Below, one piece after another: positions 32,456 through 49,519 of a DNA stretch of 57,996 bases. Made by a program: the position numbers and the translations under genes. The notes beneath the pieces are model-generated. The model did no database searches. It was not told the DNA's origin and worked only from the letters and a program-made list of their open reading frames with translations. Numbering within the stretch: position 1 is the stretch's first letter; each line of letters starts with the position of its first letter. This DNA is from an uncultured Bacteroidia bacterium (GTDB taxonomy: Bacteria; Bacteroidota; Bacteroidia; J057; CALDDN01). Where the stretch lies: positions 1 to 57,996 of the forward strand of contig CALDDN010000024.1 in assembly GCA_937936615.1 (NCBI GenBank), given 5' to 3'.

Positions 32456-33148
32456 TTACTTTTTCAAGGTAAAAGGCTGAGGGCGGATTAGGGTGTCGTA
32501 TCGCCAGAGTTCGACGATGTCGGCCTTGGCGACGGGGTAGGGCGGGTGCTGGCTGTTGTCGCTCACGAGCAGGAAGTGATCGGCATCGGGGCCGATTTCG
32601 ATGCGCTTGACTACCGGGGCACGGTTGTGGCAAACCACGACGTAGATTTCGCCATACTGCACGTAATCCAAATGGGGCACGAGCTGGCAAATGATCCAGT
32701 CGCCGCCATTGAGGGTATTTTGCATCGATTCGCCCCAGACCTGCAGGCCGATATACTGGCCCTGACGGTATTTGGGGTCGGGCAGGGCGATCTCGGGCTG
32801 CTGTTCCCAGAACTGGGGGTCGGCCCGTTCCTGAAGGTAGCCCGCCTGGGCCGCTTGGTTGAGCAGCTTGATGACGGGCTGGTTGGCTCGGTCGACGACG
32901 ACGGGCAGGAGTCCGCCACCCGAGCTGGCCGGAGGAGCCGAGGGGGGCGGCTCGGTCCCGAAGAGCAGGGCATCGGCCGAGACCCCAAAAAGCATCACCA
33001 GCGATATGAGGTGAGGCACTGTCAAATCAGATTTGCCCAATTCGATGGACGAGATGGAGGCGCGGGTCAGTCCCAGGTGGTCTGCCAGCTGTTGCTGGGT
33101 CATGGACCGACTTTCCCGCAGGCGGCGGATGCGTTGACCGATGGACAT
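32456..33148 (-). CDS. XRE-family HTH regulator with S24/LexA-like peptidase domain
   Basis: MSIGQRIRRLRESRSMTQQQLADHLGLTRASISSIELGKSDL (HTH); AQAGYL, VWGESM (Ser) and APVVKRI (Lys) of S24. ATG at 33148 chosen. Confidence 0.92.
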   Translation of the reverse strand: MSIGQRIRRLRESRSMTQQQLADHLGLTRASISSIELGKSDLTVPHLISLVMLFGVSADALLFGTEPPPSAPPASSGGGLLPVVVDRANQPVIKLLNQAAQAGYLQERADPQFWEQQPEIALPDPKYRQGQYIGLQVWGESMQNTLNGGDWIICQLVPHLDYVQYGEIYVVVCHNRAPVVKRIEIGPDADHFLLVSDNSQHPPYPVAKADIVELWRYDTLIRPQPFTLKK

Positions 33149-33180
33149 GTGGACAGAATTTTTGAAAAGTTTGCGTATAA

Positions 33181-33215
33181 AATTTGACAAATTGATTTGA
33201 TGTAAATTAGATTTG
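33181..33215 (+). promoter_or_regulatory. candidate promoter plus operator for the 93-aa ORF
   Basis: TTTG (33183-33186) -N21- TAGATTTG (33208-33215) fits the Bacteroidota TTG/TAnnTTTG pattern; palindrome AATTTG-A-CAAATT (33181-33193) and overlapping CAAAT-TG-ATTTG (33188-33199) cover the -33 box. Confidence 0.55.
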
Positions 33216-33259
33216 CTGTCGAATTCAAAGTTACGCCAAAAAAGAAAATAAAACCAGTC

Positions 33260-33541
33260 ATGCTTTATACGTATATGAAATCCACATCGTCGGCACGCAA
33301 ATCCAATGCGCACGCTCAGGTCGTTCATGCGTGGCTTGGCCCAAGTCACGAAGACCTCTACATCCTCACGCGCAACGAAGACCGCTTCTGTATGCCCGAA
33401 GTCGGCCCTTTCGACATCGCCTGCTGGACCATCTCGCAGGGCGAGCAGGTCTACGTCGAGGACGGCACCATCGCCCTGTCCAACGACCAGATCCGCGCCT
33501 ATGCGCAGGAGCACAGCCGCTACTGGGAGCCGATGCCCTGA
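33260..33541 (+). CDS. hypothetical protein, 93 aa
   Basis: Open frame divergent from the XRE-S24 gene; GC-rich coding bias (GDGTIALSNDQIRAYAQEHSRYWEPMP-like tail) contrasts with the AT-rich upstream region. Confidence 0.65.
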   Translation: MLYTYMKSTSSARKSNAHAQVVHAWLGPSHEDLYILTRNEDRFCMPEVGPFDIACWTISQGEQVYVEDGTIALSNDQIRAYAQEHSRYWEPMP

Positions 33542-33606: not shown

Positions 33607-33614
33607 TACCTTTG
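33607..33614 (+). promoter_or_regulatory. Bacteroidota -7 element TACCTTTG upstream of the DinB gene
   Basis: TAnnTTTG match 40 bp before the ATG at 33655. Confidence 0.45.
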
Positions 33615-33654: not shown

Positions 33655-34173
33655 ATGTCCCTGGCACCTGCCTTCTTAGGCGAACTCCAACACGAAATCG
33701 AAAACACCCGCAAAGTTTTCGCCGCCATTCCCGACGGCCAGTACGGCTGGAAACCGCACGACAAGTCGGCGAGCCTTGGCGAACTGGCCGCCCATGTCTG
33801 CGAAACCATCGGCTGGGTAGCCGATACGATCAACAGCAACGGCTTCGACGCCGCCGTTACACCCTGGCAACCTGCCCTGGCCCACAGCCGCGAGGAATTG
33901 ATGGCCCTGCTCGAGAAGAAAGCTACTGCTGCCATCGAGGCCCTGACCAACTGCCCCGCCGATCTCGACTGGAACGAGCCGTGGGTCATGCGCGAGGGCG
34001 AGCAGATTTTGTTGTCTTTGCCCCGCCTCATTACCCTGCGTAGCATGGTAATCAACCACATGATCCACCACCGCGGCCAGCTGACGGTCTACCTGCGGCT
34101 GCTCAACGCCCACGTGCCCGGTCTCTACGGCCCCAGTGCCGACGACAAAGAACAGATGGCGCAGACCGCCTGA
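33655..34173 (+). CDS. DinB family protein
   Basis: FLGELQHEIENTRKVFAAIPDGQYGWKPHDKSASLGELAAHVCETIGW...VINHMIHHRGQLTVYLRLL: DinB metal-binding His residues. Confidence 0.92.
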   Translation: MSLAPAFLGELQHEIENTRKVFAAIPDGQYGWKPHDKSASLGELAAHVCETIGWVADTINSNGFDAAVTPWQPALAHSREELMALLEKKATAAIEALTNCPADLDWNEPWVMREGEQILLSLPRLITLRSMVINHMIHHRGQLTVYLRLLNAHVPGLYGPSADDKEQMAQTA

Positions 34174-34223: not shown

Positions 34224-34934
34224 TCAATCGGGAATCTGCCAGTCGATGGGTTCTTTACCCTGCTGAGCAAGCAGCCGGTTGGTCTGCGAGAAGTGCTTGC
34301 AGCCAAAGAAGCCGTTTCGGGCGGCCAGCGGCGAGGGGTGGGCCGCCTTGAGCAGGTGATGCCGGCTGGCATCGATGCAGCGGGCCTTGGCCTGTGCAAA
34401 CTTGCCCCATAACAGAAAAACGAGGCCCTCGTGGCGGTCGTTGAGGCACTCCATGACCGCATCGGTGAAGGTTTCCCAGCCTTTGCCCTGGTGCGAGCCG
34501 GCCTGTCCCGCGCGAACGGTCAGGGTGGCGTTGAGCAGGAGTACCCCCTGGCGTGCCCAGTGTTCGAGATTGCCGTGGCGGGGTGCGGGAATGTGCAGGT
34601 CGTTGTACAGTTCCTGAAAGATGTTGACCAGCGAAGGGGGAGGCGGTAGGCCCCGCTGCACCGAAAAGCACAGCCCGTGGGCCTGACCGGGGCCGTGGTA
34701 GGGGTCCTGACCGAGAATGACGACCCGCACCCGATCGATAGGGGTCAGGGTGAAGGCATTGAAAATCAGGGGTCCGGGTGGGTAGATCACCTGCCCGTTC
34801 TGTTTTTCGGCTTTGAGGAACTGAACCAGGGCGTGAAAGTAGGGCTTGCTGAACTCGGCCTCGAGGGCCTGCTCCCACGACGGCTCGATCTGAACGGGAA
34901 CCCGGGGAGGCGGTGCATCGAAGAGCTGGCTCAT
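34224..34934 (-). CDS. ung: uracil-DNA glycosylase
   Basis: [22 protein letters not shown]...[23 protein letters not shown]...[19 protein letters not shown]: family-1 UDG motifs. Confidence 0.97.
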
Positions 34935-38737: not shown

Positions 38738-41700
38738 ATGCAGCTTTGTTACAACCAAATTGCCCGCTTGCTTCGTAGATCGTTGGTCGCTTTGGGATGC
38801 CTTTTAGTGGTTTCCCACAGCGCACTGGCGCAAAAGTCCGGTGGCGATGCCCGCTGGGCCAATGGCCCCGTGGCGGGCAACAACTCCTCGGAAGGCCTGC
38901 GCATCGTCCACGACGCCCAGCTCAACAGCTATGTTGTCGGCATTTTTCAAGGTACCATCACGCTGGGTTCGGTAACCATGACCTCGAAAGGGGAGCGCGA
39001 CGGCTACCTGGCTAAGTACGACCCCAATGGCCAGTTGGTCTGGGTCCGTCAGATGGGCAGTACCGAGGCCGACATCCCCCTCGGGCTGGCCATTCACCCG
39101 CCCACGGGCGATCTCTTCGTAACGGGGATCTTCCACAACGGCATGGAAATCATCACCCCCAACCAGACCTTGACCCTGAACACGGACTTTGTCGGTCCGC
39201 CCAACAACCAGGACATTTTCATCGCTAAGTTCGACAACAACGGTCAGGCCCTGTGGGCCACCAAAATCGGTAATGCGGTCGACAATGTCTTCGAGCAAGC
39301 CGAAGATATCGCCGTGGACAATGCCGGCAATTGCTACGCCGTCGGGGTAATCTACACCGACGCCCGCTTCCACAGCTCGCCCCTGAGTGCTAAGCCTTTT
39401 CAGGTGGTTAATCCCGCGCAGCCGGGTTTCGCAAAGGAGGGTTTTCTGGCCAAATACCTGGGCGGCAACGGCGAACTCGACTGGGTGCGTACGATGGGCG
39501 GCTCGAACAGCGACGAGGCTAACTGCGTCGTTATCAATCGGGCAGGTAACGTAATTGTAGCCGGTTCGTTCGACAACACCGCCAACAATGCAAGTATCGA
39601 TGGCCAGGCTGTTGCCTCGCTGATTACGCCCGGGCCGTCCGACGAAAAGGGCATGTTCGTGGCCGCCTGGGATTTGAATGGCAACCGAATCTGGGTTCGG
39701 GCCTATGCCTCACGCAGTGGTGGCGAGGCTTTCCCTCGGCGCATGGCCATCGATCCAAATGGTTACTTTTCCATTATCGGCGACTACACAGGCTCCCTGC
39801 ATGTAACCGGACCGTTTACCAATGCTCCAGCCACACTAAACAGTGTCGGGTCGGTCGACAATTTCTTCCTGAAACTGGGCGGCTTTGGCATCCAACAATG
39901 GGTGCGCAGCGGCGGCGGTCCCAATCCTGAATCGGCCACCTCTGTAACGGTGGACGACGCGGGCAACAGCTACTTCATCGGGTACTATCGACCGGGTTCG
40001 ACCTTCGGCCCCTTCAACATGACCGGTCCGAACTACCCCAACCAGTGCCACTATTTCATCAAAATCGATCCGCTGGGCAATTATGTGTGGGCCGATGCCT
40101 ACACGCCCTTCCTGACTGACCACAGCGTAACGGGCGATGGCTGCCGGTTCTTTGGAACGGGGCGTATTTTTCAGCCCCCGCCCACCAATCGAATCGGTAA
40201 TGTTACCATTCCTTACAATCTGACGGGCGGCAACCGTGGCGACCTCGTCTACCGCTTCGATCTAGTCAAAGGGGGTCAGATTGCGCCCATCTCGACCATT
40301 CCCACGGGGCCGATTTGCCGCGGCTCGAACGCCAACCAGACCGGCGGTACCATCCACCTGGCTAATGTGGTGGGCAGCATCATCCGGTGGGAATCTTCGA
40401 CCGACTGCCCGGCCTTCACCAATCCGCAGGCCATCAACCAGACGGTTCCCAGCCTGCCGTGGGCCAATCTGGCACAGACTACCTGCTTCCGCGCCGTGGT
40501 GCGCAACGGCAACTGCGAGGATTTCTCCGAAGTGGCCCAAATCAACATTCTGCCCGACCCCGTGGTGAGCATCAACCCGCCCGGGCCGCTGCAGGTGTGT
40601 TTCCTCGAATCGAAACTCATCGAAGCGCAGGGAGCCGACTTCTACAGCTGGACTGCCCTGCCCATGTTTGCACCCAACCTGCAAAGCCCCAGTACAGCCA
40701 ACCCCAGCTTCTTTGGCTCCTCGCCTGGCTCAGCGATCTACACGGTAACGGGTGTCGATGCCAACGGCTGCAGCAGTCAGGCGACCATCAGTATCGAAGT
40801 GCTGGTAACGCCCCGGCCCAACGCCCTGGGCATCAACCCGCCCGGCCCGCTGACCCTCTGTGCCGATCAAGTCCAGAGGCTGGATGCTGCTCCGCCTACC
40901 CTCAGTTTCTACAGCTGGGCACCGGCAAACAACCTGTCCGCCACCAGCACGCCTTCGACCCAGTTTGCCAGCTCCACGGCGGGTACCTACACCTACACCC
41001 TGACCGCCGGAACCAACCCCGTCTGCACCAGTACGGCGGAGATTCAGATCACGGTGGTCGGCCTGCCGGTCATTGACATCAACCCGCCCAGCCCGCTGCA
41101 GGTCTGCCTCGGCGAGTCGGTCAACCTGACGGCCTCGGGGGCCACAACTTACAACTGGGCACCGGCCACCGACCTGAGCAGCACCAATGCGGCCAACCCC
41201 ACGCTGATAGCAAGTACGCTCGGCACGCGAACTTATACCGTTACCGGTATCGATGCCAATGGCTGCGCCAACACCGCGCAGGTCGATGTCGTCGTTACGC
41301 CGGGAACAGCCATGAGCATCACGCCTGCCGGTCCGCTGACCCTCTGCGTCAACCAGAGCCAGCTCCTGACGGCGACGGGTGCCGACAGCTACAGCTGGGC
41401 ACCGGCCACCAACCTGACCAGTGCAACGTCCCCCAGTACGCTCTTCAGCGCAGCCGCTCCCGGAACCTACACCTACGTAGTATCGGGCACTAAACTCAAT
41501 GGCTGCACCGGCAGTGCCGAGGTTACGATTACCGTTGTGGCCGCTCAGACGGTTACCGCAACCGGCCCCGCCGACGTTTGTGCGGGCCAGAGTGCCACGC
41601 TGACGGGGCTGGCGGTGAGTGGCAGCCCGCAATGGCAACGCGCTTCGGGACCGGGCTGCGTTACGCCCTGGGTCAATATTCCGGCCGCCAATGCCTTCTC

Positions 41701-44700
41701 GTATACAACCCCCGCACTCAATCCGGGGGATGTCAACTGCTTCCGACTGGTGGTTACCGATCCGCTGTGCGGCACGGTCGAATCGGCACCCGTGCTCATT
41801 AACATCAATCCGGCTTCCATTGGGGGCCTAACTTCGGCAACTACGATGGTGGTCTGCACCCCGCCCAACACAGGTACTGTGGTGGTCAATGGCCAAAGCG
41901 GCCAGGTAGTCCGCTGGGAAAGTTCGACCAATCAGGTTGCCTGGACTCCCATCAACGTTACGGCGACGACCTATACGTTCGTTGATCTGCTCCAGACGAC
42001 CTGGTTCCGCGCCGTGGTACAGAATCCGGGTTGTGCGGAAGCCCCCTCGCTGCCGGTTCGCATAGAGGTGATCAGCGGCCCCGTGGGGGGCAGCATCGGC
42101 CCCGACCAGACGCTCTGCGCCGGCAGCCGCCACACCTTCGACCTGACCGGCTCAACGGGCCAGCTGCTGCGCTGGGAGTTCTCTTTCGACAACTTTGCCT
42201 CGGTAGCCGGTTCGGTTCCGCCTTCGACCCAAACCCCGCTGCAGCTCACGACCCCCATCCTCAACCAGACGGTGAGCTACCGCGCGGTGGTGGGTGCAGC
42301 CGGATGCCCCGAAGTCTATTCCAATGTGGCGACCCTGACCGTAACGACGGGCAGCGGCGTAGTCGCTCCGCCCATTTCTGAATTCTGCGGGGCGGCCCCC
42401 AGCCGCTTCTTCTCGCTGACGGCTTTCTCGGGCAACATCATCCGTTGGGAACGCTCGACCGATTGCGCCAACTTCAGCAACCCCGTACCGGTAGCGGCTA
42501 CGACGCCGACCCTGTCGGTGCAAGCCGGCATCACGCAGACGACCTGCTTCCGTGCCGTTACCGACAACCCGGCATGCCCTTATTCGACCCCAGCCGAGGT
42601 GCGCATCAGCCCCAACACGGCTGGTGGTACGATCAGCGGTGCCCCCGCCGGTCCGGTCTGTGCCCCCGCTGGTCCCTTCAACCTGACGCTGACCAATCAG
42701 GTGGGCGATGTGCTCCGCTGGGAACGCTCGACCGACAACGGCCTAACCTGGCAGGCCATCGGCAACGCCGGCAATACGGTACTCGCTGTCAATCAACTGA
42801 CGCAGAACACGCTCTTCCGTGTTCGGGTGCAAAGCGGCCTCTGCCCGCCCCAGTACTCGCAGCCGGCCCGCGTGGACATCGCGCCCTCGCCCGTTGCCGC
42901 ACCGATCACCAGCAGCGGCCCGGCCACCGTCTGCGCCGGTGCCAGTGGCGTGCTGACCCTTAGCCCGGCGGCCAACGGCATCGTACAACGCTGGGAGGTT
43001 TCGACCGACAACTTCGCCACCGCACCGACGGTCTTCAATACGTCGAACCGGTTCTTTACTTACAGCAACGTGAGCCAGACGACGCAGTACCGCGCCGTGC
43101 TGGCTACCAACACCTGCCCGCCGGTAACGACGCCGGTCTTTACCCTGACGGTAACTCCCCAAACCGTTCCGGGAACGATCAATGGCCCGGCCACCGTCTG
43201 CAGCGGCACCAACAGCGGCTCGCTGGTGCTGACCGGCCACACGGGTGCCATCCTGCGCTGGGAAGTTTCGACCAATAATTTTCTGACTGTAACGACTTTG
43301 CCTGCGGTCGCCAACTTCCTCAACTACAGCAACCTGACGGCCACGACGCGCTACCGCGCGGTCGTACGCAGCGGCAGCTGTGCCCAGCGCACGACCCAGC
43401 CCGTCGAGGTAACGGTACTTCCCGCTCCGGTGGGCGGCACGCTGCTGGGGCCGCCTTCGGTTTGCGGCAGCCCCAACACCGCTCAGCTCGATCTGCGCAG
43501 CTTTGTCGGACCGATTGTTCGCTGGGAAAAGAGTACGAACAACTTCACGACCGCTCCGACGGTCATCAACCACACGCAGCCCAGCTACACAGCCAGCAAC
43601 CTGGCGGTAACGACCCAGTTCCGGGCCGTGGTGGGCGATCCGCAGTGCGGCTTCGCAACCTCCACCGTCTGGGAAGTGAAGGTCAATCCTGCTTCGGTCG
43701 GCGGCAATGCAGTTGCCTCTACGCCCAGCCTGTGCACCAGCGGTGCAGCCAGCGTGAGCCTCCTCAACAGTGTAGGTAACCTTGAACGCTGGGAGAAATC
43801 GGTTGGCGCGTGCAACGGCCCGTGGCAGCCCATCGCCAGCTCGGCCAACCTCTTTACGTTCAACGACCCGCAGCCCGTGCAGCAGACGACCTGCTACCGC
43901 GCCATTGTTCGTAACGGCACCTGTGCGCCGGTTGCTTCGGCACCGGCTGAAATCAAGGTCTACCGCAACCCGATCGCCGGTTTCAATGCAACGCCGGTGC
44001 GCTGCAAAGGCGAAAGCAACGGCGCGATCACGCTCAGGGCGACTTCATTCAATTTCGAGTTTTCGATCGATGGGGGCGCGACCTACCAGCCTGCAACTCC
44101 TCCGGCCATCCAGTTTACGGGCTTGGCTGCGGGCAGCTACCCTGTACGTGCCCGTAACCTGAGCCAGACCTGCGTCTTCAGCGGCCCGACGGTCGTCGTG
44201 AGCGAACCGGCGGTTGCGCTGGCGGTTGCCAACCTGCAAACCCGTGCTCCGCGCTGCAACCAGCCGAATACGGGTCTGGTCGATCTGACAGTAACGGGCG
44301 GCACGGCCCCCTATGCCTTCCGCTGGTCGAACGGTGCCCAAACCGAAGACCTAGTCAACGTGGCTTCCGGAACCTACACCGTAACGATTACCGACCGCAA
44401 CGGCTGCGAGCAGGTAACTTCGGCTGTCGTACCGGCGGCGAGCAGCGTATCGGTTTCAGCTGCGGTTAATGATGTGAGCTGCTTCGGCAGCCGCGACGGT
44501 GCAATCAGCGCAACGGCTACGGGCGGTACGCCTCCCTATGCCTACAACTGGAGCATTGGCGGCCCGACCAACCTGTCCTCGCGCAGCAACCTGGCTGCTG
44601 GCCAGTATACCCTTGTGGTGGTGGATGCTGCAGGCTGTTCGAGCACGCAGACCTATATCATCGTGGAGCCGCCCCGCCTGACCACCCAGATCAGTACAAC

Positions 44701-47700
44701 GCCGACGACCTGCCCCACGGCGGCAGTCGGTTCGGCTTCGGTAACGGCTGCAGGGGGTACGCCTCCCTACAGCTACCTGTGGAGCAATAACCAGACGGGT
44801 AGCCTGATCCAGAACCTGCGGGCGGGTACCTATGCGGTAAGCGTAGCCGACAGCCGCGGCTGCCAGATTGCCGATCAGGCCGTAGTAACGGCTTCGCAGA
44901 CGGCACCCACGGTCTCGTTGCCAGCAGCGACCCCCAATGCCCTCTGTGGCTCGGGGAGCACCACGCTGAGCGTTGCCGCCAATGCCAACGAAGTTTACAC
45001 CTGGTACCGCGATTCTACGCTGACTCAGGCAGCCGGTAACGGGCCGGTGCTGGTGGTTCCGGTAACGGCAACGACGACTTTCTACGTAACGGCTGCCAAT
45101 GTATTGAATCCGACTTGTATTTCGGCTCCATCGTCGATTACGGTGCGGGTTTCGGCACCGACGGTCGGCGGAACGGCTGGGCCTTCGGCCACCGTTTGCC
45201 CCAACAGCAACTCGGGTACAGTCAGTCTGACGGGCTTTACCGGATCGGTGCTGCGCTGGGAGGAATCGACCGACAATTTTGCAACTAATGTTGTTGCGGT
45301 CAACAACACCCTGCCTTCGCTGAGCTACGCAGCCCTGACGCAAACCAAGAGCTTCCGCGCGGTTGTGGCCAGCCCGGGCTGCCCGCAGGCATTCTCGACA
45401 CCGGCAACGATTACGGTGGCGGCTAACTGTGGCCAGATTTCCGCCAGCCCCTCGGTACTGGCCTTCCCGACGATCGCATCGGGATGCGGCTCGCCTGTGC
45501 TGGAGGTCAACGTCTCGGCTACGGGCCTGACGGCTCCGCTGGTCATCACGGCACCGGCCGATTTCGAGATTGCCCTCACGCCAGCCGGACCGTTTGGCCC
45601 TTCGTTGACGATCAACCCGACGGCCAGCAACGTGGCCCCGCGGTTCATCAGCGTGCGGGTTCGTCCCAATGCCCCAGTGGGCAGCTACAGCGGTACGCTC
45701 GTCCTGAGCAGCACCAATGTAACCAGCCAGAATGTCAACCTGAGTGCAGTTGTTGCGGCCTCGCCTGCATCGGTCGTAAACCTGGTGCCCGCCAGCCTCA
45801 ATCTGGGCACGGTGCCCTTGGGCGACTACTCCGGAGTGCAGAGTTACCGCCTGCAGGTACTCAATCCGGCGGCTGGCGGTGTTCTGGTGCAGGCTCCGGC
45901 ACCCTTCCAGGTGTCGCTCTCGGCCAACGGGCCGTTTACTTCGGTACTGGTTGTTCCCACGGTGCCCTGCCAGAATGTCAATACGCTGGTTTACGTCCGG
46001 TTCCTGGGGACTGCGCCCGGTCCGTTGAGCGGTAACATCGCGCACAGCAACGGTAGTGCGGCGGCCAGTCTGCCCGTTACGGGCAATGTGCTGGCCACGT
46101 CTGCCCGTCCGGTTGTAGTTACCAATCCGAACTGGAATTCACAGGCCGATGTGGACAACACGCTGGGGCCGAACCAGTTTACCTGGCAGGTGGATGCGTT
46201 CAATGACCTGCAGACGGCAATCGACGCCGTGTTGAGCGGTGGCCGGGTTCTCCTCAACGGTCCGATCCACTTTGGCGACAACGTGCGCGTGCCGCGCCCC
46301 ATGACCATCCAAGGCAGCGGCCCGACGCAGACGACGGTGCGCCCGATGTCCAACCGGCGCAATACGTACCCGACGGGAGATCCCCGCGAAGCCCTCGACC
46401 CGGCATACGATCACAAGCACGGCTTCATCATCGCCAGCAGCGACGTTACGATCCGCGACCTGACGATTTCGGGTGATCCGAGCCTCGACTGCTCTGAACG
46501 TTTTGGCGTCGGTATCCTCAACGACGACCGCAGTAATGTGCGTTACGACAACCTTATCGTTGACAACGTACGCGTCGAGTTCACGTATTCGAAGGGCATT
46601 CAGTTCTACAATACGGGGGTCAAGCACCAGATTCGCAACAGTGCGATCGATGATGTGTGCCTGCGTTTCGACAGCGATCCGCAAATCTATCCGACGGCCA
46701 CCGGTATTTTTGTCAACGATCCGGCCGATATCGAGAACAACCTCGTGAGCCGGTCCGGTACGGGTATCCGGGTGGAAGGCAACTTCGGGGCTTCGGCCGG
46801 CCTGTCGACCATCCGGGGCAATGTGATCCTCGAACAGGAAGCGACGGGCATCGATGCGGATTTGCGTCCGGCCAGTACGCCTAACTTCGTGCAGGTGGCC
46901 GGTAATACCATCACGGGTGTAGGAGCTTTCGGTATCGATGCGCGGGGCTTTGACGAAAATGCGATAATTGGCGGGCCAGCCCCAGCCCATCGCAACGTCA
47001 TCACGCCCAGCACCCGTCCGAACCGTGGACCGGCTGTCGGTGCCCGCGTGTCGAACTCGCTGGGTGTGCTGGTGCAGAACATCGAAGTGAACGCCGCTGG
47101 CCTCGAATCGGGCCTCTGGATTTTGCAGAACACCGACCGCAACCGTCCTGTGCGTGTTACGGAAGCCGACCTGCGCCGTGTAGGGGCCTTTGCCAGCAAT
47201 CCGGCCAATGGCCAGTCGGCGGGTCTCTTCATGAGCGAGCTGGGTCAGTACCTCGATGGCAATGTGGGCGAAAGCTTCGCGCACATCTGGAACTCGACCA
47301 TCAGTGGCTTCAACGTCGGTATTTTCACCAACGAGAACGCCCAGCGCGATATTGAGATTCTGGTCGGGGGTAATAATGTAGCCCAGCCCTCGGTAACGAT
47401 CCATAGTTGCGATTACGGCATGATCATCAATGGCCGCTCGCAAGGAACGGTGGGACGCAACCTGCGCACCATCCGCGACAACCGCGTGGGCATCTGGGTC
47501 TATGGCGGGGAGCTGATCATGGAAGGCAGCCGCATGGCCAACAACCAGACGGCCATCCAAGTGGATGACAAGCCGCTCTTCAATACCGTTTTCGAGTCGA
47601 TTGTAACGATGACCAACAACCTCTTCGAGGGCAACGGCATCAACATCGACAACCGCAGCAGCCGCCCCGTGCAGGCCTCGTTCAACTACTGGGGCAGCAA

Positions 47701-49519
47701 CAACGCGGCCCTGGTCAACGCCTCGATGCGCCAGACGGGCTCGGGCATCGACTTCAGCCCCTGGCTCGACAGCGGCATCGATACCGACAACAATTCGCAG
47801 AATGGCTTCGATGGCGATTACAGCTTCGTACACATCGATGCCCGCAGCTTCCAGATCGGGGGCCTGAGCCACCTGCAGGAAGCGGTCAACGAACCGCGGG
47901 TGCAGCGCGTTTTCGTCCACGACGGTGCCTACGCCGGCAACACCAACGTAACGCGCAGCCTGACCCTGACCAACGACGGCCTGGCTCCGCTGCCGCAGCT
48001 GGCCAGCCTTTCGATCAACGGGGGTGGCAGCCGCCTGACGCTGGAGCGCGGCTTTGAAATAACGTCGAGCCTGACCCTGACCAACGGTCTGGTGGAGCTG
48101 CTCAACAACAGCACCCTGCAGCTCAACCTGACCAGCGTACTGACGGGAGGCAACGATTTCAGCTATGTCATCGGTCGTCTGGCCCGCCAGTCGGCCGCCG
48201 TTTCGGCTACCGATCTGTTCTTCCCCATTGGCTCGGCGACGGCTTACCGCCCCGCCACGCTGAACGTGGCCCAGCAGTCGAATGCCACCAATACATACAC
48301 CGGTCGCGTGGTGGAACCCAACCTGCTGGTACGCAGCCTGCCAGCCGGTGTGCTCAGTGCCTCGACTGTGCGTCAGTGGGCGTTTGAGCAGAGCGGCCCT
48401 GCGGCCGTTTCGGGCTTCCAGTTCGATGGGGCTTTCGGTGCCGATGATCCGCACAGCAACACGCCTGCCGAGCTGGCCCTGCTCAAGGATAACGGCCCCA
48501 GCAGCACCGCCTGGCTCAACCTCGACGGTACAGCGGGCAACGGCAGCATCCGCTCGACGGCTCCCTTCACCAGCTTGGGTAACTTTGTGCTGGGTCGCCG
48601 CTCGTCGGCGGGTCCAGTAACACCGGGTACGCTCAACCTCACGGCGGTGCTCAACGTTTCGACCAACTCGGCCCTGCCTACCTGGACGAGCCTCAACTGC
48701 CCCGCCGCTCAGTACGAAGTCCGCTACCGCGTCAAAGGCTCGGTAGGCAACTACAGCACGGCCACGGTAACGACGACCTTTGCCCTGCTCAACGGCCTGC
48801 AGCACAACACCACCTACGAGGTGAGTGTACGCGGCCGCTGCGGCAGCCAGCCCTTCAGCCCCTGGTCAACGGGTACCGTAACCGAGTTCACGACCCAGTC
48901 GCTGGGCGATTGCAACGTGGCCGGCACGCCGCCCGTACCGGGTAACCTGCACATCAGCCAGGTAACGGCCCGCACGGCACTGGTCAACTGGCGGCGTGTA
49001 ACCAACACCTCGACGCAAGGCTACATCGTGTCCTTCGGCGATGCCGCCCTTAATCCCAACAGCTGGCCGCAGTTTGTGGTCTGCAACCCCGCTACCTCGT
49101 TCCTGATTTCGGGTCTGACGCCGGGCCGTACCTATGGCGTGCGTGTGCGTACCAACTGCTCGAACTGCACCACAGCCCTGAGCAGCAACGACCGCCGCTC
49201 GAACTGGAGCCAGGTCGAGAACTTTACGACCCTCAACAGCCGCGAGAGTGATCCTCAAACCTCTGCCAGCTCGTCGGTCAGCGTCTACCCCAACCCGACT
49301 ACGGGCCAGTTTACGCTGCGTTTCGATGCCACAGCAGCCGGCGAGGCGCAGGTAGTTCTTACCGATCTGACGGGCCGTGTCCTTGTTGAACGTGCCTGGA
49401 CGGTTGGCGATGGCCGCAACGAACTGAGCGTATCGCTCGAAGGCTATGCAGCCGGTCTCTACCTGCTGCGGGTTCGTCAGGCCGACCGCGAACACCAGGT
49501 CAAGGTCATCCTCGACTAA
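38738..49519 (+). CDS. giant (3593 aa) T9SS-sorted surface protein: SBBP-like N-terminus, PKD-like and RWE/Ig-like repeats, SprB repeats, beta-helix, FnIII
   Basis: Leader [22 protein letters not shown]; SBBP-like [31 protein letters not shown]; SprB-like [39 protein letters not shown]; C-terminus [18 protein letters not shown]...[24 protein letters not shown]. Confidence 0.93.
   Translation: [3593 protein letters not shown]
40300..43960 (+). repeat. RWE/Ig-like module array (about 9-10 units) with four interspersed PKD-like units (~40560-41540)
   Basis: Cores [81 protein letters not shown] plus a variant PQWQRAS; PKD-like units contain (Y/F)(S/N)WAPA...GTYTYTxTG. A further RWE unit (VLRWEESTD) lies near 45250. 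Confidence 0.8.
43960..44900 (+). repeat. SprB repeats (about 4 units)
   Basis: [15 protein letters not shown]..., [29 protein letters not shown]..., [29 protein letters not shown]..., [30 protein letters not shown].... Confidence 0.82.
46130..47830 (+). other. right-handed parallel beta-helix region of the 3593-aa protein
   Basis: [37 protein letters not shown]...[17 protein letters not shown]...[18 protein letters not shown]...[30 protein letters not shown]. Confidence 0.75.

Follow-up and report, generated by a model that had tools for sequence, protein, structure and literature searches.

For a long time, a LexA-type SOS response was believed to be missing from Bacteroidota. S24 repressors that control DNA-damage responses are already known from this phylum, where the group closest to the locus described here comprises the non-canonical LexA proteins of Bacteroidetes, COG2932-type XRE-S24 SOS repressors; those exemplars that have been tested are induced by damage and recognize short palindromes of fixed spacing (PMC8565304). 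Members of this family have been shown experimentally to be DNA-damage regulators, and they combine a CI-type HTH with an S24 domain, an Ala-Gly site and a Ser-Lys dyad (PMC8565304). Some are divergent from a damage gene, and their palindromic operators lie near the start, with a 4-N5-4 geometry in one group and with diverged motifs such as TTAC-AAATT-GTAA also on record (PMC8565304). Elsewhere, the phage-type S24 repressor FddR of Francisella is divergent from a gene without known function and forms a self-contained damage-response module with it, while a paralogue at another site faces dinB (PMC13148647). In Acinetobacter, the S24 repressor UmuDAb is divergent from the lineage-restricted small protein DdrR and shares a promoter region with it (PMC7273328, PMC11332147); both -35 elements overlap the operator, and joint repression of the two genes is thought likely (PMC7273328).

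The pair considered here, an XRE-S24 repressor gene facing a gene for a 93-aa protein, lies in a stretch of 57,996 nucleotides from an uncultured Bacteroidia bacterium (the window; Table 1) and is probably a small damage-inducible switch. In its sequence, the regulator resembles the published non-canonical LexA repressors, sharing their two domains, Ala-Gly site and Ser-Lys dyad, but it appears to belong to a separate long-branch clade, has a shorter C-terminus, is preceded by a spacer that lacks the published motifs, and faces an orphan rather than a repair gene. The layout also likens it to UmuDAb-DdrR, although UmuDAb is UmuD-derived with an unusual DNA-binding domain, and DdrR is an established co-repressor whereas the role of the 93-aa protein is putative. 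Like FddR, the repressor is divergent from a gene without known function; FddR, however, comes from another phylum, recognizes GTG-N11-CAC, and has a partner conserved throughout the genus, whereas the 93-aa partner was present in no other searched genome.

Table 1. Features of the divergent unit and of related small genes (window coordinates unless a locus is named)
Feature	Coordinates	Strand	Basis and remarks
XRE/CI-type HTH plus Peptidase_S24 repressor, 230 aa	33148-32456	minus	Pfam, translation, alignments, AlphaFold model
Candidate operator 1, AATT-TGACA-AATT, 13-bp palindrome over -33 box	33181-33193		Sequence, comparison with relatives
Predicted promoter toward 93-aa ORF, TTGAC-N19-TAGATTTG	33184-33215	plus	Pattern scans, layout in relatives; predicted TSS ~33220
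Candidate operator 2, ATTT-GATGT-AAAT, 4-N5-4 dyad	33195-33207		Sequence, relative L115
TAACTTTG, predicted -7 box for regulator	33226-33233	minus	Sequence; octamer recurs upstream of S24 genes L125 and L263; predicted TSS ~33221
Orphan ORF, 93 aa	33260-33541	plus	Coding statistics, properties, searches without match
DinB-superfamily (not Pol IV) protein	33655-34173	plus	Pfam DinB, E 6e-14; 113 nt downstream of orphan ORF
Small divergent proteins of family f44	L125:5387-5677; L258:296-565; L260:3518-3865; L262:3416-3634; L263:3418-3669		

The regulator has Pfam matches above the cut-off to HTH_19 (E 5e-13), HTH_3 (E 2e-12) and Peptidase_S24 (E 4e-15), with the HTH at residues 4-64 and the S24 domain at residues 98-210; the winged-helix LexA DNA-binding domain (PF01726) is absent among these matches, an XRE-type HTH standing in its place. 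In the translation, AQAGYL supplies Gly103, GESM supplies Ser141 38 residues further on, and VVKRI supplies Lys181 after another 40 residues, so that coordinates, residues and spacings all agree with the preliminary description, which had recognized an HTH-S24 protein with an Ala-Gly site, Ser and Lys. Ala102-Gly103 is the candidate scissile bond and Ser141/Lys181 the candidate dyad. Wherever its sequence extends over them, each aligned relative, cellular or viral, keeps all four residues (A102, G103, S141, K181); the sole exception is L142, which carries MGY for AGY. The AlphaFold model, made with relatives from viral contigs, has a pLDDT of 80; its predicted C-domain matches lambda CI, LexA and LexA-RecA complexes, and its predicted HTH matches P22 c2 and 434. 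These features give no sign of derivation from UmuD, the HTH being of the XRE type and the best structural matches being CI and LexA.

Sequence matches to the regulator are present in 52 of 60 relatives, and a clade profile search places its family in 297 of the 395 genomes sampled from the class; related S24 genes also occur on viral contigs. Among the genes divergent from or adjacent to the relatives' S24 genes, most of them Pfam-confirmed and the rest read from sequence, are those for RecT (L114, L115), Pol IV (L127, L133, L134, L137, L142), DnaE2 (L123, L127, L133, L142) and SRAP (L123). The RecT-family genes (L114:3-803, L115:6022-7077) are divergent from S24 repressors in two genomes of the same order, and the RecT/S24 spacer of L115 contains a perfect ATTAGCATTGCTAAT palindrome between its promoter boxes. 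In two trees, from which the published reference proteins were left out, the regulator groups with S24 proteins linked to RecT and to the small genes of f44, another family of the class, beside the main clade that carries the Pol IV and SRAP neighbours; with 2.3-2.7 changes per site, its branch is so long that its place is unsure. Several main-clade relatives have a site of the published CTAA-N5-TTAG type near the S24 start, which supports self-regulation in the family. The damage-responsive S24 repressor originally proposed is thus well supported at the level of its family, by the kept AGY, Ser and Lys residues, the repair-gene neighbours and the experimentally characterized related proteins.

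The spacer between regulator and ORF is 111 bp long and has a GC content of 29%, against 60% for the window. It contains an exact TTTG-N21-TAGATTTG at 33183-33215, as claimed for the promoter toward the 93-aa ORF, and the pattern is rare by chance: 0.31 copies would be expected in the window, where there are two, and 0.8% of the spacer's dinucleotide shuffles contain it. The sequence proposed as the reverse-strand -7 box of the regulator, CAAAGTTA, is likewise present at 33226-33233; no -33 box for the regulator's own promoter is recognizable in the spacer. Start sites predicted from the position of the -7 box, at -12 to -5 (PMC9723704), fall at nearly the same base pair on the two strands, and thus one bound dimer could affect both transcripts.

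Six of nine clade relatives share the window's divergent promoter, TTGAC-N18/19-TAnnTTTG, for which the shuffle frequency per spacer is 0.0005-0.004. Its first base is exactly 35 nt away from the regulator start codon at four loci: the window, and L258, L260 and L263, which come from another family of the class. The divergent gene in the clade relatives encodes either a different small protein without known function or RecT. Because promoter layout and 35-nt offset recur beside other divergent genes, the layout is held in common and the product varies; on this comparison, what is conserved is the arrangement, namely an S24 repressor, a conserved divergent promoter and a changing divergent gene, rather than the 93-aa protein.

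Less can be said for the operator that had been placed over this promoter. The AATTTGACAAATT palindrome is exact and overlaps the -33 box, but it is not significant alone, since 10.6% of shuffled spacers have a perfect 6-1-6 palindrome and 48% have one with 6-bp arms and a loop of any length from 0 to 8. The TTGAC half of the palindrome coincides with the conserved -33 box of the promoter, and is kept in relatives that have no palindrome. The second candidate dyad lies between the -33 and -7 boxes, just upstream of the latter, at the position matching that of the perfect palindrome in L115; two or more 4-N5-4 dyads appear in 15% of shuffles. LexA-like sites published for Bacteroidetes have the same 4-N5-4 geometry as the two candidates (PMC8565304). 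Neither of the published motifs, CTAA-N5-TTAG and GGA-N5-TCC, occurs in the spacer, which contains only AATT-N5-AATT and ATTT-N5-AAAT. With two neighbouring candidate dyads, neither significant by itself, an operator over the promoter is plausible but unproven.

By its codon usage, the 93-aa ORF (88 aa if the alternative in-frame ATG at 33275 is used) is very probably a gene. Its coding score, calculated with the window's own codon usage, is 20.9 bits, whereas shuffles score -33 +/- 11.6, the highest of 1000 reaching 2.1; its GC3 of 0.78 is like that of neighbouring genes. Its description as an orphan holds in every collection searched: homologues were found neither in Pfam, NCBIfam, PHROGs and PDB, nor in 60 relatives, 22 same-order genomes, 395 genomes of the class and 396 of the phylum, nor among viral contigs, plasmids and phages, and a pattern scan of 84,980 species, which detects close relatives only, gave no match. 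Weak matches in the phylum search (metallophosphoesterase-like, sugar-nucleotidyltransferase-like, and two stop-containing frames) were rejected, their number being that expected by chance. Co-conservation of the pair, which had been put forward as a check, consequently fails, and the exact pair was found in no other searched genome. An AlphaFold model from the single sequence is unusable (pLDDT 45). Since the protein is soluble and acidic, with a pI of 5.2 and without transmembrane segments, it is most likely a small modulator or checkpoint-type SOS product; analogous units allow the guess of a DdrR-like co-repressor, an FddR-type partner or a checkpoint-type product.

The S24 genes of family f44 face a small protein family of their own, 72-115 aa in length with a PVRxxxRVPxxxS motif region, of which a held-out member was recovered (E 5e-8); the two members tested have no Pfam match, and no homology with the 93-aa ORF was found. 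A second small protein, 60-69 aa and MNVYVTQLKRSIADKLQYIDDAEYLSSLDAILTYE-like, is encoded directly downstream from the S24 gene in L125, L259, L260, L261 and L262 (e.g. L259:3434-3616). It looks antitoxin-like, and the one tested example has no Pfam match.

Downstream of the orphan ORF, the gene for the DinB-fold protein could be co-transcribed with it or could use a possible TAnnTTTG box of its own, TACCTTTG, at 33607-33614; a scan found no terminator between the two genes. A sequence search of the DinB-fold protein against the relatives' neighbour genes gave no match. The idea that a DinB-family gene marks a damage operon was rejected: DinB-fold proteins are abundant, and only one other S24 locus (L146) apparently has such a neighbour, as read from sequence. 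Convergent to this gene, beside the regulator/ORF unit, is a uracil-DNA glycosylase gene (34224-34934). In Bacteroidetes, such glycosylases are reported to be among the targets of the SOS response (PMC8565304); at the promoter of this one there is no copy of the palindrome with two or fewer mismatches.

We consider it fairly probable that the regulator and the 93-aa gene form a self-contained, divergently transcribed S24-repressor unit that is derepressed by RecA-stimulated self-cleavage after DNA damage. Self-cleavage, RecA dependence, operator binding and damage induction are here carried over from characterized relatives. As long as the cell is undamaged, the XRE-S24 protein would sit as a dimer on one or both AT-rich dyads (33181-33207) in the -33/spacer region and block the promoter of the 93-aa gene; because the divergent predicted starts nearly coincide, the dimer would also limit the regulator's own expression. 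Upon DNA damage, RecA filaments would prompt the Ser141/Lys181 dyad to cut the protein at Ala102-Gly103, whereupon the dimer would release the DNA and the 93-aa protein, possibly together with the downstream DinB-fold protein, would be made.

It is possible, but doubtful, that the S24 protein is instead a non-canonical LexA with a large set of targets, serving the organism as its global SOS repressor, and that the 93-aa gene is only the nearest of these targets. Family members run large regulons in several Bacteroidetes families (PMC8565304), and the assembly contains no S24 match besides the regulator; however, this assembly, which has no recA, Y-family or replicative polymerase genes, is 57% complete and may lack further S24 genes. 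At seven further places in the genome there is a near-match to the palindrome with at most one mismatch. One of these, some 70 nt ahead of a gyrB-like gene (L158), is what a wider regulon would predict, but it is the only one clearly upstream of a DNA-metabolism gene, the near-matches being few and mostly away from repair genes. Palindromes at the recA promoters of same-order genomes share no common motif, and the clade in which the trees place the regulator, if unsurely, is not the main clade with Pol IV and SRAP neighbours.

A further reading, which we regard as unlikely, makes the 93-aa protein a DdrR-like co-repressor or anti-repressor, that is, a small acidic protein, restricted to its lineage, that would attach to the S24 protein and modulate its cleavage or its binding to DNA. 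The architecture of UmuDAb-DdrR matches, with its S24 repressor, divergent genus-restricted small gene and jointly controlled overlapping promoters (PMC7273328, PMC11332147), as do the charge and solubility of the 93-aa protein and the unrelated small proteins that other clade members face; on the other hand, neither sequence nor the low-confidence fold offers evidence of such a role, and no homologue was found. More improbable still is that the repressor is the remnant of a decayed prophage and the 93-aa ORF an unrelated leftover. The regulator does have a CI-type HTH, it matches PHROG transcriptional repressors, related S24 genes occur on viral contigs, and a phage origin has been suggested for its family (PMC8565304), but the catalytic residues and the promoter layout are intact, as is the coding bias, and the regulator does not lie among phage genes. 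By their Pfam matches, which agree with the initial remark that no phage genes are nearby, the neighbouring genes are ordinary chromosomal ones (TonB receptor, glycosyltransferase, FkbM methyltransferase, WG-repeat, DinB-fold, uracil-DNA glycosylase and NIF3 proteins). Further along the window, a single ORF of 3593 aa (38738-49519), which has numerous repeats and a C-terminus of T9SS-like type, probably encodes a giant surface protein. That the small ORF is not a gene, and that the promoter drives the DinB-fold gene through a long leader, would accord with the lack of homologues and of a terminator but is very improbable, given how strongly codon usage and GC3 favour coding in this frame and given the DinB-fold gene's own TAnnTTTG box.

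A self-contained, damage-derepressed unit is therefore the reading that we favour for the regulator and its orphan partner, and it touches on the question of how phage-type S24 repressors build an SOS response in Bacteroidota. Conceivably, though this is rather unlikely, the clade consists of exchangeable damage-switch modules in which the repressor type and a fixed promoter layout are kept while the output is swapped (the 93-aa orphan, the 72-115 aa family, RecT), and in which the small proteins would be new SOS effectors or co-repressors. A fixed promoter layout with changing output genes is what the stepwise model from Francisella predicts, in which self-contained divergent units are recruited and later merged, and the small partner proteins are candidates for as yet undescribed damage-response effectors.
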